Origin: Methylobacillus gramineus
GTDB taxonomy: Bacteria > Pseudomonadota > Gammaproteobacteria > Burkholderiales > Methylophilaceae
Direction: 5' to 3'
NCBI RefSeq assembly: GCF_020532675.1
Contig: NZ_JAJAVE010000001.1
Location: forward strand, 744,001 to 808,000
DNA length: 64,000 bases
A model generated the notes under the pieces. That model saw only the letters and a list, made by a program, of their open reading frames with translations. It did no database searches and was not told the DNA's origin. Made by a program: the position numbers and the translations under genes. Positions 25,969 to 45,126 of this stretch are shown here, one piece after another (position 1 is the stretch's first letter; each line of letters begins with the position of its first letter).

Positions 25969-26208
25969 TCAATGCTTGCTTTGGGTGAGAGCACTTTCAC
26001 TCGTATCGTCTGCTTCATCCAGCTTTTGATGGAGATCTTTCTTGCTGTAGTGGCCTGGATAGGGGCCGCATAAATCCTGCATTCTATTGGACAGATAGGT
26101 TTTATTTTCTGCCATTATTTCCAGTTGAACCGAAGTGATCTTGCCCAGTTTCTGATTCACTCCACCCACAAACTCTTTCCAGTTACTTTCAACTTCATGC
26201 CATTTCAT
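25969..26208 (-). CDS. CsbD-family stress protein
   Basis: A 79-aa protein. MKWHEVESNWKEFVGGVNQK, then KLGKIT, lines up with the CsbD opening MNWDQIEGKWKQLKGKVKE, the family of sigma-B and RpoS-linked small stress proteins (E. coli YjbJ). The second half (CGPYPGHYSKKDLHQKLDE) follows the CsbD pattern, and a Ser/Thr tail is added. The function of CsbD proteins is not known; they are abundant in stationary phase. The ATG at 26208 has AAAGGA 7 bases upstream and is preferred to the frame start at 26238. It sits with the 35-aa miniprotein in the gap before ndvB. Confidence 0.75.
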   Translation of the reverse strand: MKWHEVESNWKEFVGGVNQKLGKITSVQLEIMAENKTYLSNRMQDLCGPYPGHYSKKDLHQKLDEADDTSESALTQSKH

Positions 26209-26438
26209 CTGAGTTTCCTTTATCTGTAGTCCCATCATGATGAATATCAGTTGGGTGCGAAATTAAAGTAAGAACTCATGGGTAGATATCAATCCAGAAT
26301 ATGAATTGCGTATGGGTACCAAACTTGTCCCGCACTGGTAATCCTAGAAGTAAATCTAATCCTTCACCGTCTGTTACCACACTTACACACGGTGATATTT
26401 CAATCATGCTGGCATCGATTCATCGTCGATTAACGGCC

Positions 26439-26546
26439 TTACATAAGGCTATATTTTTCTGTCCAATAGATCCCTGTACACAATAAAAACCAGACCAGGT
26501 GGGCAATCATAATGAGAATGATCAGTGCATGACGTCTAGACCACAT
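26439..26546 (-). CDS. 35-aa membrane miniprotein
   Basis: A short frame: MWSRRHALIILIMIAHLVW, then a second hydrophobic stretch ending YSLM. A very good Shine-Dalgarno, GGAGG, lies 5 nt before the ATG. The arginines before a single membrane helix suggest an N-in orientation. The frame is too short for standard gene calling. It lies upstream of csbD on the same strand (230 bp) and is divergent from ndvB. I do not recognise the family. The RBS and topology make it a likely true gene, and the function is unknown. Confidence 0.6.
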   Translation of the reverse strand: MWSRRHALIILIMIAHLVWFLLCTGIYWTEKYSLM

Positions 26547-36065: not shown

Positions 36066-36220
36066 AATCCCAAGTATTTGAATTAATGTTATTTTTTTAT
36101 TAAGTTATTGGCATATTCACCTACAGTATAGCTCTGATAAATAAATTCATATGTGCGCTATCGAATAGACACTCTGATTATTAGGGGGTAGAAGTAGTAC
36201 GTACGAGTGAGGGTTTTTAC

Positions 36221-36436
36221 ATGAAAAACAATAGAAATAACGCACATATCTCGGATAATTTTTTAATTATCGCCATCTTTAATCCAAGACTAGAGCCTTA
36301 CTTTGTAGACCATCTCACCGCAAAAATAAGATATGAAGCCAATGATGGCATTTCTATGGTGATCGATATGGCGAGAAAAGAGTTTTCTATGTTGTGCCAC
36401 TGGAAGAAAATACCCATAGCACTGACTGTGAACTAA
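36221..36436 (+). CDS. 71-aa protein of unknown function
   Basis: A small protein with the stretch DNFLIIAIFNPRLEPYF, then KIRYEANDGISMVIDMARKE. No membrane helix is clear and no family is recognised. The ATG follows GTGAGGG by 8 nt. It is divergent from the crp-like gene and is followed after 18 bp by a 30-aa membrane ORF with a strong RBS, so the two look like an operon. The AT-rich composition differs from housekeeping neighbours. Coding status is plausible, not proven. Confidence 0.5.
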   Translation: MKNNRNNAHISDNFLIIAIFNPRLEPYFVDHLTAKIRYEANDGISMVIDMARKEFSMLCHWKKIPIALTVN

Positions 36437-36454
36437 ATGCGATAAGGAGTACTA

Positions 36455-36547
36455 ATGTCGGAAAACACTGGTCGAGCGATTTTTATCTTCTCTTTTACAA
36501 TGATCCTGATAGGCACATTACTAGCATTTTCATGCTGGTCAATTTAA
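36455..36547 (+). CDS. 30-aa membrane miniprotein
   Basis: A 30-aa frame beginning MSENTGRAIFIFSFTMILIG and ending CWSI, with one transmembrane helix. AAGGAG sits 5 nt before the ATG, an excellent Shine-Dalgarno. It starts 18 bp after the 71-aa gene and is probably co-transcribed with it. Too short for routine gene calling. No known family recognised. Confidence 0.55.
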   Translation: MSENTGRAIFIFSFTMILIGTLLAFSCWSI

Positions 36548-36649
36548 TAAGCATACGTCCATTAAGCATAGATGCAAATCCAAGAAAAAAGGATGGCATC
36601 TAGCTGCTGATCAGCAAATAGATAGTAGGGAGGGTGAGGGTATCGCATT

Positions 36650-36745
36650 TCAGAATGGCATATATAAAGGCACTATTAGCCAAAACAAGAATAGTCCATT
36701 CATCAGAATGAGAACAATCAGAGCTACTTGCCAAAAATCAGACAT
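36650..36745 (-). CDS. 31-aa membrane miniprotein, coupled to the 91-aa gene
   Basis: Begins MSDFWQVALIVLILMNGLFL and ends LYMPF, nearly all hydrophobic. The ATG overlaps the stop of the upstream 91-aa gene by 8 bases (ATGTCTGA), the classic sign of translational coupling. GGGG is 8 nt upstream, a weak RBS. The overlap is the best support for it being real. Function unknown. Confidence 0.5.
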   Translation of the reverse strand: MSDFWQVALIVLILMNGLFLFWLIVPLYMPF

Positions 36746-37013
36746 GATGTGCCCCAAGAGCGTGGTTATTGAGCGTCCAGCTGATGGCTTCAACCTGATC
36801 AATGTTTACCAATCCCACATTGACCGTAAACATCATCCCCGACTTTGTCATGAGAAACTGTTTACCGGGTTGATGAATGCAACCTGAAACTTGTTCATGA
36901 AAAGCCAAATTCAATGGCTCCAACACCTCAAACACACTATATCGATTCGTCGCTTTAACTTTGACTGCATAACGGTTTCGAGAAGTATTCATAGCAACCA
37001 CAATAGCTTTCAT
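36738..37013 (-). CDS. 91-aa conserved-looking protein of unknown function
   Basis: A beta-rich 91-aa protein: MKAIVVAMNTSRNRYAVKV, then KATNRYSVFEVLEPL and later KSGMMFTVNVGLVNIDQ. The early part resembles a small OB-fold or S1-like sheet, but no motif settles it. Start at ATG 37013 with AAGGGA 5 nt upstream; a GTG at 37016 is the next option. The stop overlaps the 31-aa membrane ORF by 8 bp. A perfect dyad (37124-37140) lies 111 bp upstream. I do not recognise the family. Confidence 0.6.
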   Translation of the reverse strand: MKAIVVAMNTSRNRYAVKVKATNRYSVFEVLEPLNLAFHEQVSGCIHQPGKQFLMTKSGMMFTVNVGLVNIDQVEAISWTLNNHALGAHHV

Positions 37014-37369
37014 CACGATCCCTTTTTTTCAGGTTTTTATGCGTGGGTAAGGAAGGCATTGGCCAGCGCTCTGTTGACCAATAGACTAAATAGTAAACAA
37101 TTTTTTCAGCAAAGTATCATTTTTATCACTTTTTGTGATATGGCGCTTAATATGCAAAGATCTACGGGTTACTTTTTGGCGGGAAAGATGCATTTTTACA
37201 GGAATGAGTTTTAGGTCGAATAGAACGCGCACTGCCGAATCGCTGATGCTAAGTCTGTGAGCAAACTATGAGTTGATTATGGCGAAGCTTAAAGCCTGAG
37301 AATATTTAAACAGTGGTTTTAGCTACTGTACCTTAAGGCTAATTCGATCAACATCACCAAGCATTCAGT
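37014..37369. other. Intergenic region upstream of the 91-aa gene
   Basis: 356 bases without a gene I can support. It holds the dyad at 37124-37140 and ends in the terminator at 37370-37401. Confidence 0.5.
37124..37140. promoter_or_regulatory. Perfect TATCAC-N5-GTGATA dyad
   Basis: TATCAC and GTGATA around TTTTT, upstream of the 91-aa gene (minus). A further TATCAT half-site lies at 37116-37121. The symmetry fits a dimeric regulator; GTGATA-type half-sites also resemble Crp/Fnr or GntR sites. The regulator is not known. Confidence 0.4.
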
Positions 37370-37401
37370 AACTAAAAACCCGCATCAGCGGGTTTTTAGT
37401 T
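37370..37401. terminator. Bidirectional terminator
   Basis: 14-bp arms AACTAAAAACCCGC and GCGGGTTTTTAGTT with loop ATCA. T-runs on both exits. Ends the DUF3309 unit on the minus strand. Confidence 0.85.
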
Positions 37402-37431
37402 CAGATCAGCGGATGCACTGACACATCATCG

Positions 37432-37590
37432 CTATATGCGGCCAGTGAGTAAAAGAATGACCAAAATAATCACCACCAAGCCCAGGCCACCACTTGGGCC
37501 ATAGCCCCAGCTTTGACTATAGCCCCAGCTAGGCAAGGCGCCAACAAGCAGCAGAATCAAGAGAATCAATAAAATGGTAGAAATTGGCAT
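37432..37590 (-). CDS. DUF3309-type membrane miniprotein
   Basis: A 52-aa protein: MPISTILLILLILLLVGALP, then a Trp/Gly/Tyr-rich loop (SWGYSQSWGYGPSGG) and a second helix LGLVVIILVILLLTGRI. This two-helix/aromatic-loop pattern is that of DUF3309, a family of tiny membrane proteins frequent in proteobacteria and often near stress genes; its function is unknown. GGAGG lies 8 nt before the ATG. It is too short for routine gene calling and ends before a strong terminator. Confidence 0.8.
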   Translation of the reverse strand: MPISTILLILLILLLVGALPSWGYSQSWGYGPSGGLGLVVIILVILLLTGRI

Positions 37591-37942
37591 GAATGCCCCT
37601 CCGAATTTTAATAGGTTATTGAGGGCGGCGTATGGCCGCTGTTTCTGCCAGCCTTGAGGTTAGCAGCTTGGATCAAATGACGGTTTCAATATACTGGATG
37701 CGTCATTTTCGCGTTTATCCGTCGCTCACTGAAACCAGTGTCAGTCATATCTGACAGCCGGGAACGTTCACATTATGTAATGTAGTTTAGGTATTTAAGA
37801 GGGTGACCTTTCAGGATGCAATGATCTAGTTCAATTGGTCTAGTTGAATGCTGTCATTGATGCATAAAGCCTCTACTAATTATGCGTAAAAATAGGGGCC
37901 AGTGAGTAACATTTCCATGGCTTGTCATGTTTATCCTACGCT
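37591..37942. promoter_or_regulatory. Divergent promoter region with dyad
   Basis: 352 bp without a gene. It holds TGTCAG-TCATAT-CTGACA (37739-37756), a perfect 6-6-6 dyad, and CATTA-TG-TAATG nearby (37772-37783). It probably serves the DUF3309 gene (minus) and the HDO gene (plus). Confidence 0.35.
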
Positions 37943-39568
37943 ATGGCAAGCCAACATCTGATACTGCCCTTCATTGGTCTTAAGGATACTATTTCTTCAG
38001 GAAGAACTAATTGGGCAATGCAGGGGGCATGGAAAATGGAAGAGATTGCATTCAGGGTAAAGCGTGGATTTGACACCATTTCAAGTCTGCAATTTCCAAC
38101 ATACTTCTACGATGTCAGCACTCAGCGTAAGCCTCAAAGACATGCTCAACATCTGCTTCAGATAAACCACACTCGTAGCTTATATCATGCACTAATTCAG
38201 CCGCACTTGAGTAAGCAAGCCAGGAATGCAGCCAGGCATTGTTTGGATGTGCATTTGCAGCAAGCAAAACTAAGGCCTTTCCCATTTTCCGAGAACATAG
38301 AAGATATTCAGCCATGGCTTGAGCGACGCTCTAGCCAAGTGAACAAAGACTATAGAGCATACTTACACTCACGACGTCAAGGTGCACCGCGTCGATATTT
38401 CACCAGCAAATCCCATGCGTTACATTTTCTGCATACTATGGCTCCTACCCGTATGACAGATGGGGCCTGGCTATTTGGATTCCTCAAGCGCTGGCAAGAT
38501 GTCAGGTATGCACCATTGTGCAAGATTTATCTCAATATCGTGGGGGAGGGCAATGAGTATCGGAATCAGGTTGTCCAGTATCAGCGTTTGCTCGATGACA
38601 ATGAATGCCGGGATTGGCGAACCCTTGATGATCAATATTATATGCAAGGGGTCATTCGCTTGGCACTGGGGCAAAATGTTGAGCAGTATTTACCGGAAAT
38701 AATAGGTTTCAACCTGGGCTACCAGCAGGTGTCTCTTGCCATGTTGGTTGCAGCTTATGAGCTGAATGAGATGAACATCAAGTCTCATTACTTCACTCTT
38801 GGTGCCACAACGGAAGATGCTTGCTCGGCGAGTGCGGTCAAAATGCTGCAGCCATTGCTGGCTGATGCTCCATCGCTTGCAGCGCGCCAGGCGTTATTAG
38901 CACGCGTGGCTTCTGGTTATCAATTGCATAAAGTGGGCATGGATATTCCTGCCATGGTTGAGAATTTTGATCTGCAAAAGGAGTTTCTATGCTTAATGCA
39001 ACCCCGAATGCACGCCCTGAAACGTATCCATCGTATTGATTGTCTGGAGCGTGGCATATTGCCGAAATGGCTAAGCCATCCATCTGCTCCTGCACTGATG
39101 ATGCAGTTATATGAAGAAGGATGGACTGATACTGGGGACGTTGCCATGGTGCAGCGCAGCGGCCTGTGGCTAACCATGCAACGTGAAAATATATTACCTC
39201 AAGGCTATGAGCTGCAAGTGCTGATAGATTGGTTGGGACAGAGTAAGGACTATGCCAAGCGTTTAAGTCACCTCAGTGCTGATTGTCTTCGTGCGATAAA
39301 TCATCAAGCTTCCAGCCTGATTGAAGGTATCTATGATCCAGTCCAAAAGGAAATAATGGGGCAGCAGGGTGGTGATGCATTGGATCGGATGAATGAGTCT
39401 AGTAGCCAGGATGACATCATGAATCTTTTAATCAGGCTAATCGCTCCTTTGATGCACCATACCCAGGAGGGGTTAAGGGCAGCACGTATCTATCAATCTG
39501 TACTTGAGAAGGGCAGCCAGCTTTACTCCCAGCATCATGCATTTTTCTTGATGCGGGATGTGGTTTAA
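37943..39568 (+). CDS. Haem-oxygenase-like (HDO) protein, metal ligands apparently lost
   Basis: A 541-aa protein. The central part, MTDGAWLFGFLKRWQDVRYA, then NIVGEGNEYRNQVVQYQRLL and FNLGYQQVSLAMLVAAYELN, matches the iron-containing redox/Haem_oxygenase_2 family (HDO superfamily: UndA, SznF, BesC type). As I recall the family, ligands lie in D/E-E-x-G-x-G...N-H and F-x-L-H...G-H-A. Here these read N-I-V-G-E-G...N-Q and F-T-L-G...A-S-A, so the Glu/His ligands look replaced. It may be a pseudoenzyme or use another site. The N-terminus is uncertain: ATG 37943 chosen, ATG 38036 has AGGGGG upstream. The 150-aa ends have no recognised domain. Confidence 0.6.
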   Translation: MASQHLILPFIGLKDTISSGRTNWAMQGAWKMEEIAFRVKRGFDTISSLQFPTYFYDVSTQRKPQRHAQHLLQINHTRSLYHALIQPHLSKQARNAARHCLDVHLQQAKLRPFPFSENIEDIQPWLERRSSQVNKDYRAYLHSRRQGAPRRYFTSKSHALHFLHTMAPTRMTDGAWLFGFLKRWQDVRYAPLCKIYLNIVGEGNEYRNQVVQYQRLLDDNECRDWRTLDDQYYMQGVIRLALGQNVEQYLPEIIGFNLGYQQVSLAMLVAAYELNEMNIKSHYFTLGATTEDACSASAVKMLQPLLADAPSLAARQALLARVASGYQLHKVGMDIPAMVENFDLQKEFLCLMQPRMHALKRIHRIDCLERGILPKWLSHPSAPALMMQLYEEGWTDTGDVAMVQRSGLWLTMQRENILPQGYELQVLIDWLGQSKDYAKRLSHLSADCLRAINHQASSLIEGIYDPVQKEIMGQQGGDALDRMNESSSQDDIMNLLIRLIAPLMHHTQEGLRAARIYQSVLEKGSQLYSQHHAFFLMRDVV

Positions 39569-39690: not shown

Positions 39691-40251
39691 ATGGCTATAA
39701 GTACAGTAACTGAGCAAGACCGCGTTAAAGCACTGCATCAATTGTTGATTTTGGATTCACCTTACGAAACGCTTTTTGACTCGATTGTGAAGGCAGCAAG
39801 TGATATTTGCGAAAAACCTATCGCCCTGATTTCATTGGTAGATGAAAATCGGCAATGGTTTAAAGCCAAGGTGGGATTGCCGAGTGAGGTGACTCAAACG
39901 CCAAGAGAATATGCCTTTTGTGCCAAAACGATATTAAGTAATGAAATTCTGGAAGTAATGGATGCATCCCAGGATGATCGTTTCTTTGATAATCCTTTAG
40001 TCACTGGAGATCCTAATATCAGGTTCTACGCTGGCTTTCCGATCACCATGCCAGCAGGCGAGAATATTGGCACCGTCTGTGTCATTGACTCCAAGCCCGG
40101 CGGCCTGAACTTATATCAACGCAAAGCGTTACAAGGCTTGTCTGATATTACTTCCAAGGCTTTGACTGCACGCCTGGTCAGCCTGAAAATGTATCATCAC
40201 ACGCACCTGGAAGATCCATTGGTGTCAGAGTTGATTCCTGTTGAGGCTTGA
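39691..40251 (+). CDS. Stand-alone GAF-domain protein
   Basis: A 186-aa cytosolic protein. Residues ~20-165 form a GAF domain in the style of those before GGDEF or kinase domains: TEQDRVKALHQLLILDSPYE, IALISLVDENRQWFKAKVGL, EYAFCAKTI, DDRFFDNPLVTG, IRFYAGFPI and GTVCVIDSKPGGL. GAF domains bind small ligands, but no output domain is fused here. The protein therefore probably acts through a partner. The C-terminal ~20 residues are unrelated. It sits behind the C15 tract and after the HDO gene, with a weak GCGAG RBS. Confidence 0.8.
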   Translation: MAISTVTEQDRVKALHQLLILDSPYETLFDSIVKAASDICEKPIALISLVDENRQWFKAKVGLPSEVTQTPREYAFCAKTILSNEILEVMDASQDDRFFDNPLVTGDPNIRFYAGFPITMPAGENIGTVCVIDSKPGGLNLYQRKALQGLSDITSKALTARLVSLKMYHHTHLEDPLVSELIPVEA

Positions 40252-45000: not shown

Positions 45001-45126
45001 ATGGGTAAAGACCAGAAAAGTAATAAGATGGATAAAAAGAAACCTCTTAAAACGCCTAAGGAAAAGAAAGCAGAAAAGAAACAAAAGGATAACCCGGTTC
45101 CTTTCAACATCAACAAGCCTGCCTGA
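45001..45126 (+). CDS. 41-aa lysine-rich protein
   Basis: A 41-aa frame with 14 lysines: MGKDQKSNKMDKKKPLKTPK, then EKKAEKKQKDN. The KKKPLKTPKEKKA core recurs in short basic proteins of many proteobacteria, as I recall, whose role is unknown; nucleic-acid binding is plausible from charge. RBS is a weak CGAG. It ends in NKPA. A CGCAAG/CTTGCG stem (45154-45168) follows. Confidence 0.6.
   Translation: MGKDQKSNKMDKKKPLKTPKEKKAEKKQKDNPVPFNINKPA

Follow-up and report, generated by a model that had tools for sequence, protein, structure and literature searches.

Within 1.4 kb of the Methylobacillus gramineus genome, five very small genes, encoding proteins of 71, 30, 91, 31, and 52 amino acids (p71, p30, p91, p31, and a DUF3309 protein), lie next to the gene for a Crp-like regulator (crp). 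This arrangement raises the question of how many of the five, if any, are controlled by that regulator. In an initial annotation of the 64,000-nucleotide stretch of DNA analyzed here (the window), they had been read as a single envelope module under the Crp-like protein. The answer reached below is that crp and p71 probably have divergent promoters with one predicted operator in common, from which class II activation would proceed both ways, and that p91-p31 and DUF3309 are separate from this switch.

All five frames are present where they had been annotated, together with the AAGGAG and GGAGG sequences (Table 1). The p31 ATG overlaps the p91 stop (ATGTCTGA), which bears out the proposed coupling; p91 itself starts with ATG, and a GTG is present in frame 3 nt upstream. 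Three of the frames (p30, p31, and DUF3309) are indeed strongly hydrophobic, with maximal 19-residue Kyte-Doolittle means of 2.28, 2.81, and 2.78, and the 52-amino-acid protein is an ordinary member of the DUF3309 family, which it matches over the full length (79 bits against PF11752; cut-off, 22.3). The regulator exceeds the Pfam cut-offs for both of its domains (PF00027, 32.1 bits, cut-off 27.5; PF13545, 58.9 bits, cut-off 27). The genes fall into three units. The crp gene (-) and p71-p30(+) point away from each other, p91-p31(-) runs toward p71-p30, and DUF3309(-) stands alone. A hairpin with two perfect 12-base arms, seen directly at 37372-37399, lies between p91 and DUF3309. In a generic scan of 35.2-38.0 kb for sigma-70 promoters and terminators, hits fell below the shuffle mean, and an Rfam scan of the whole window matched two tRNAs (62.5-62.8 kb) and nothing else. 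Nearby, a 548-amino-acid protein whose iron redox domain is haem-oxygenase-like (PF14518) is encoded at 37922-39568 (+), close to a GAF-domain gene at 39691-40251.

Table 1. Genes and predicted regulatory elements around crp, in window coordinates
Feature	Position	Strand	Remarks
Crp-like regulator, 243 aa	35334..36065	-	cNMP_binding + HTH_Crp_2
Predicted crp -10 hexamer TATACT	36125..36130	-	operator centre at -41.5
Predicted operator of the Crp-like protein	36149..36170	.	palindrome, 22.8 bits; common to the divergent crp/p71 promoters
Predicted p71-p30 -10 hexamer TAGAAG	36189..36194	+	operator centre at -41.5
p71, 71 aa, predicted Crp target	36221..36436	+	in three Methylobacillus genomes only
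p30, 30-aa hydrophobic microprotein	36455..36547	+	AAGGAG; 3' of p71; M. caricis homolog
p31, 31-aa hydrophobic microprotein	36650..36745	-	pair with p91 kept in M. arboreus
p91, 91 aa, predicted small beta-barrel	36738..37013	-	weakly PmrD/IraM-like model; without Crp site
DUF3309 (PF11752), 52-aa hydrophobic protein	37432..37590	-	GGAGG; without Crp site here

Searches of p71, p30, p91, and p31 against Pfam, NCBIfam, and PHROGs gave nothing better than E 0.09. Pairwise comparisons between Methylobacillus species yield dN/dS values of 0.17/1.63 and 0.20/1.38 for p71 (in a third pair dN is 0.21 and dS is saturated), dN 0.25 and dS 1.67 for p30, 0.13 and 0.98 for p91, and 0.14 and 1.16 for p31. 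Synonymous change greatly exceeds amino acid change in every comparison, and the four look like real genes under purifying selection, with translation as a prediction. Their conservation extends beyond one genome: homologs of p71 occur in M. arboreus (74%) and M. caricis (65%), a homolog of p30 occurs in M. caricis (59%), and M. arboreus has both p91 and p31, again as a pair (78% and 71%). Within the family, p71 is matched in 3 of 187 genomes, leaving 184 without a match, and p31 in two of the 187, the only ones with a close form of p91. Matches to p91 are found in four of 100 relatives, all Methylobacillus and including the window's genome, with weak matches elsewhere; a p91 profile matches 4 of 399 genomes of the order and 2 of 369 of the class (the window's own counted). 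The predicted structure of p71 is unusable (mean pLDDT 55). In M. caricis, a 36-amino-acid hydrophobic frame with a ribosome-site-like AAAGGA lies 3' of p30 (L013:1483-1593).

The p91-p31 pair might be a unit of its own, either a PmrD/IraM-like connector with a membrane microprotein or a toxin-antitoxin-like pair in which p31 is membrane-active. This reading is a tentative one, the toxin role being an idea, and it can hold together with the divergent crp/p71 promoter. It is consistent with overlapping genes that are both under purifying selection, with the restriction of p31 to the two genomes that have the close form of p91, and with a different genomic place in M. arboreus, where the pair adjoins a ROK-family gene on another contig than crp. 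There, 13 kb contain no copy of the operator described below scoring at least 9 bits. On the other side, genomes of the genus with distant p91 relatives give no p31 match. One such distant p91-like frame (L005:1504-1686, in G002) is followed by two small hydrophobic-looking frames of 50 and 39 amino acids; perhaps p91 with a membrane microprotein is a recurring arrangement.

The connector idea comes from the AlphaFold2 model of p91 (mean pLDDT 83), in which a small beta-rich domain is joined by a helix at the C terminus. The top Foldseek match is E. coli PmrD (E 0.086), and the four best VIA-align rows are PmrD (7.9), PmrD (7.7), RssB-bound IraM (6.9), and PmrD (6.8). PmrD and IraM bind response regulators. 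The first PmrD row (Z 7.9) covers 72 aligned residues, compared with 56 for cold-shock CspA (6.8); cold-shock proteins appear from Z 6.8 down and cover mainly p91 residues 1-58. However, rows less than 1 apart count as tied, so that IraM and the third PmrD are tied with the cold-shock proteins, and a Z below 8 may reflect merely a common arrangement; for both reasons the weak likeness to PmrD/IraM is kept as a lead. In sequence, p91 has no Pfam or PDB match and no match to a PmrD profile.

The evidence for the crp/p71 switch begins with a palindrome that is found upstream of both the Crp-like gene and p71 in all three species that carry p71 (3/3). To define it, 106 Crp hits (at least 45% identity) were reduced to 99 by requiring 55% identity over 150 aligned residues and 120 nt of upstream sequence and by excluding L053 and L054 as copies of the M. 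caricis and M. arboreus genomes; the search set consisted of the best 80 of 182 confirmed loci that encode Betaproteobacterial relatives of the regulator. The upstream regions of these relatives, among the best 80 of the 182 loci, gave a symmetric matrix with the consensus GTATGTGCGCTAGCGCACATAC. In five-fold cross-validation, for which the training sites had been located with the full matrix, 72 of the 99 Crp-family upstream regions in this set score at least 15 bits, compared with 0.0 per 99 in shuffles; the other 27 have no site at 15 bits. Across the best 80 of the 182 loci the matrix finds 198 sites, training sites included, and five column-permuted matrices find 1-6.

In the window, the crp/p71 operator is the single site above 10 bits, and ten shuffled windows contain no site at 17 bits. 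All six crp-family genes in four Methylobacillus genomes have a site of at least 16.7 bits; in the two Methylobacillus genomes without a crp match, hits to a pattern allowing two mismatches top out at 14.5 and 15.8 bits. Loose patterns return background: the degenerate consensus with three mismatches has 29 hits in the window's genome (control, 28), and the two-mismatch pattern has 45 in the genus genomes taken together (control, 68). Matrix scores and a one-mismatch threshold separate the sites better. With at most one mismatch, the pattern occurs at one place each in the window's genome, M. arboreus, and M. caricis, and nowhere in the other genus genomes (G002, G004, and G005). A 17.5-bit site in M. 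arboreus lies inside a long open frame and is probably due to chance; thus, a high score does not always mark a real site.

The position of the operator relative to -10-like sequences points to how it may work. Among 73 sites upstream of genes other than crp (at least 14 bits, identical sites merged), the downstream columns are nearly flat except for T at +30, A at +31, and T at +35 from the dyad, which correspond to the positions conserved in a -10 box. After a redundancy cut to 65, TAnnnT is present at +30 in 28 sites, and at each of 36 other offsets in 0-3; for crp promoters the corresponding numbers are 27 of 85 at +30 and 0-8 at 23 other offsets. This fixed offset would place the dyad at -41.5, the position of a class II activator, as for E. 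coli CRP. Both window hexamers lie at exactly the family offset, that of crp reading 36130-36125. At this offset the p71 hexamers of M. arboreus (TAAAAC) and M. caricis (TACAAC), like that of the window, have no T at -7, which leaves p71 outside the 28 full matches; the -10 of M. arboreus crp is one base off. The -10 phasing in the family and in the window is consistent with a predicted class II placement, and with a -10-like hexamer at this offset on both sides, divergent activation of crp and p71-p30 is probable.

Coding selection, operator conservation, -10 phasing, and target families were computed; binding, activation, the p71-p30 operon, an inducing signal, and a role in envelope stress are inferred. 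A dimer of the Crp-like protein would bind the operator, whose centre would lie at -41.5 on each side as judged by the -10-like hexamer there, and would activate transcription both ways in class II fashion. It would thereby raise its own synthesis and switch on the p71-p30 operon, from which the 71-amino-acid protein and the 30-amino-acid membrane microprotein would be made. This operon would be the Methylobacillus-specific part of a regulon of small stress/envelope genes that other Betaproteobacteria have, with BON, CsbD, DUF3309, DUF883, DUF5670, and glycine-zipper proteins and some glucan-synthase-like genes as its wider members; the convergent p91-p31 and DUF3309 have no site and lie beside it as separate units.

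The gene order differs between the species. In M. caricis and M. arboreus it is glucan-synthase-like gene, p71, crp, with one site for p71 and another for crp; the window has the order glucan-synthase-like gene, crp, p71, with a single site that would be common to the two. On its p71 side, the window site has a flank that clearly resembles the p71 promoters of the other two species (alignment z 5.8 and 4.9). On its crp side, the similarity to other crp promoters is weak (z 2.8, 1.7) and no stronger than that to p71 left flanks (z 2.8 and 2.0). The window order could have arisen by tandem duplication with a crossover at the operator, followed by loss.

An unlikely alternative is that the Crp-like protein represses crp and p71, or that another family member is the main binder. 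Autorepression occurs among Crp-family proteins, and the window's genome contains a candidate in a Crp paralog (G000:C1:1181369; 59% identity) with its own site at G000:C1:1181236 (L158:4236). At that site the gene on the other side is divergent and encodes a PEP-CTERM/DUF642 protein, and the crp side has no phased -10 box. However, the fixed offset to the -10-like box is the geometry of a class II activator, and a repressor needs no such phasing.

In other Betaproteobacteria, the open reading frames behind operator sites form recurrent families, and representatives confirmed by Pfam include BON, CsbD, DUF4398, DUF5670, DUF883, glycine-zipper domain, DUF3309, OmpA, and PAS/histidine-kinase proteins. 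CsbD, DUF3309, DUF883, and BON genes are common and stress-associated. In six named genomes, which had been picked for holding a crp gene, the pattern with no more than one mismatch matches 20 times in forward and 24 times in reverse orientation (reversed control, 1 and 1), at 28 distinct places. Among the 19 of these loci that were read, the site precedes Crp-family genes in four (L163, L164, L167, and L170), BON genes in L168, L171, L179, and L181, and genes for DUF3309 (L172), DUF5670 (L176), and CsbD (L178); in L180 the gene behind the site is glucan-synthase-like and DUF4398 lies on the opposite side, and several loci have no assignable target (for example, L165, L166, L169, and L174). 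Sites of at least 15 bits are present upstream of 6 of 9 CsbD, 4 of 7 DUF3309, 13 of 29 BON, 6 of 10 DUF883, 6 of 8 glycine-zipper, 7 of 13 PAS-kinase, 3 of 9 OmpA, 2 of 12 GH94-type, 3 of 3 p71, and 85 of 122 Crp-type genes, compared with 11 of 139 other open reading frames of at least 200 amino acids, although these family rates are biased upward because the families were first picked for lying behind sites. Since the operator precedes BON, CsbD, DUF3309, DUF883, DUF5670, and glucan-synthase-like genes, it is plausible at the level of families that a stress/envelope set is under Crp control.

The regulon predicted for Methylobacillus is small. The window's genome has four hits to the pattern with at most two mismatches (control, nine), so the predicted regulon there is tiny; among the pattern hits in that genome, two score well, the crp/p71 operator and the site at the paralog. 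M. arboreus has a further site before a BON gene. In the window, the best operator scores within 400 bp upstream are 22.8 bits for p71, 5.7 for both the CsbD-like and the glucan-synthase-like gene, 0.8 for p91, and -8.3 for DUF3309. The CsbD gene that had been annotated 10 kb away (25969-26238, -) scores 12.7 bits against PF05532, below the cut-off of 40; however, its product aligns at 40% identity (tblastn E 2.5e-7) with a protein from Polynucleobacter that scores 65 bits as a full Pfam CsbD, and it is hence best called CsbD-like. This gene and a 35-amino-acid hydrophobic frame (26439-26546, -) are divergent from a 2847-amino-acid gene with GH94 domains, and small proteins that by eye resemble the pair, with no Pfam match, are encoded near crp in M. 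caricis (L013) and M. arboreus (L014). Elsewhere in the window, a 41-amino-acid lysine-rich protein is encoded at 45001-45126 (+). Its M. arboreus homolog (L014:13005-13118) is encoded between p71 and crp, and further homologs adjoin Crp operators (L164/L086, which are one record, and L129); the window gene has no operator upstream.

These results bear on the single envelope module of five tiny genes under the Crp-like protein. All five lie within 1.4 kb, three encode hydrophobic miniproteins, and in other species the operator precedes DUF3309 and CsbD genes. Yet the five frames form three units on two strands, no site precedes p91, DUF3309, or the CsbD-like gene in the window, and p91-p31 is unlinked from crp in M. 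arboreus. The single module is now very improbable, and it was rejected because of the missing sites and the unlinked p91-p31 locus. Of the proposed control by the Crp-like protein, the part that stands is the predicted operator at p71-p30 in all three species, and p91-p31 and DUF3309 fall outside it; likewise, the stress/envelope miniprotein set is supported by operators before CsbD, DUF3309, BON, and DUF883 genes in other Betaproteobacteria and not by the window's copies. That the frames are chance open frames, as small size and the lack of family matches for four of them might suggest, is next to negligible, since the pairwise substitutions in p71, p30, p91, and p31 give purifying selection, with synonymous change dominant in all four.

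Put together with the divergent crp/p71 promoter, these observations allow a bolder and still rather doubtful proposal: an autoactivating class II Crp-like protein may head a previously undescribed stress/envelope regulon of Betaproteobacteria (CsbD, BON, DUF3309, DUF883, DUF5670, and glucan-synthase-like genes), of which Methylobacillus may keep, as a remnant, one divergent p71-p30 switch beside a PmrD/IraM-like connector (p91) coupled to the membrane microprotein p31. Searches of open-access literature, partly at the level of titles and abstracts, found no description of control of CsbD, DUF3309, DUF883, or BON genes by such a Crp-like protein and no report of this operator, which is also absent from the portions of PMC12531629 and PMC6127331 that were covered. 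Because the operator is defined and accompanied by a phased -10 box, this control of stress genes can be tested directly in many named species. In addition, two uncharacterised microprotein pairs gain a handle, one through a predicted regulator and the other through a candidate partner fold.

Several known systems resemble parts of this one. PmrD and IraM (about 80-88 residues) and the p91 model have in common a small beta barrel and a C-terminal helix; they differ in sequence, with 8-17% identity to p91 and no sequence-profile match. The Anr/FixK box, TTGAT-N4-ATCAA, differs from the palindrome found here. The E. coli CRP operator is TGTGA-N6-TCACA. The system described here is like that of E. 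coli CRP in having a Crp/Fnr-type protein, a palindromic operator, a predicted centre at -41.5, and a site before the regulator's own gene; it differs in its operator, TMTGTKCG-N4-CGMACAKA, and in its targets, which are small stress/envelope genes. Finally, the parts of PMC6127331 that were covered describe a low-oxygen-activated locus of the betaproteobacterium B. cenocepacia in which a candidate Crp-family regulator, which is Anr-like, occurs with BON-domain and universal stress proteins; that locus is like the present system in combining a Crp-family protein with a BON/universal stress set.
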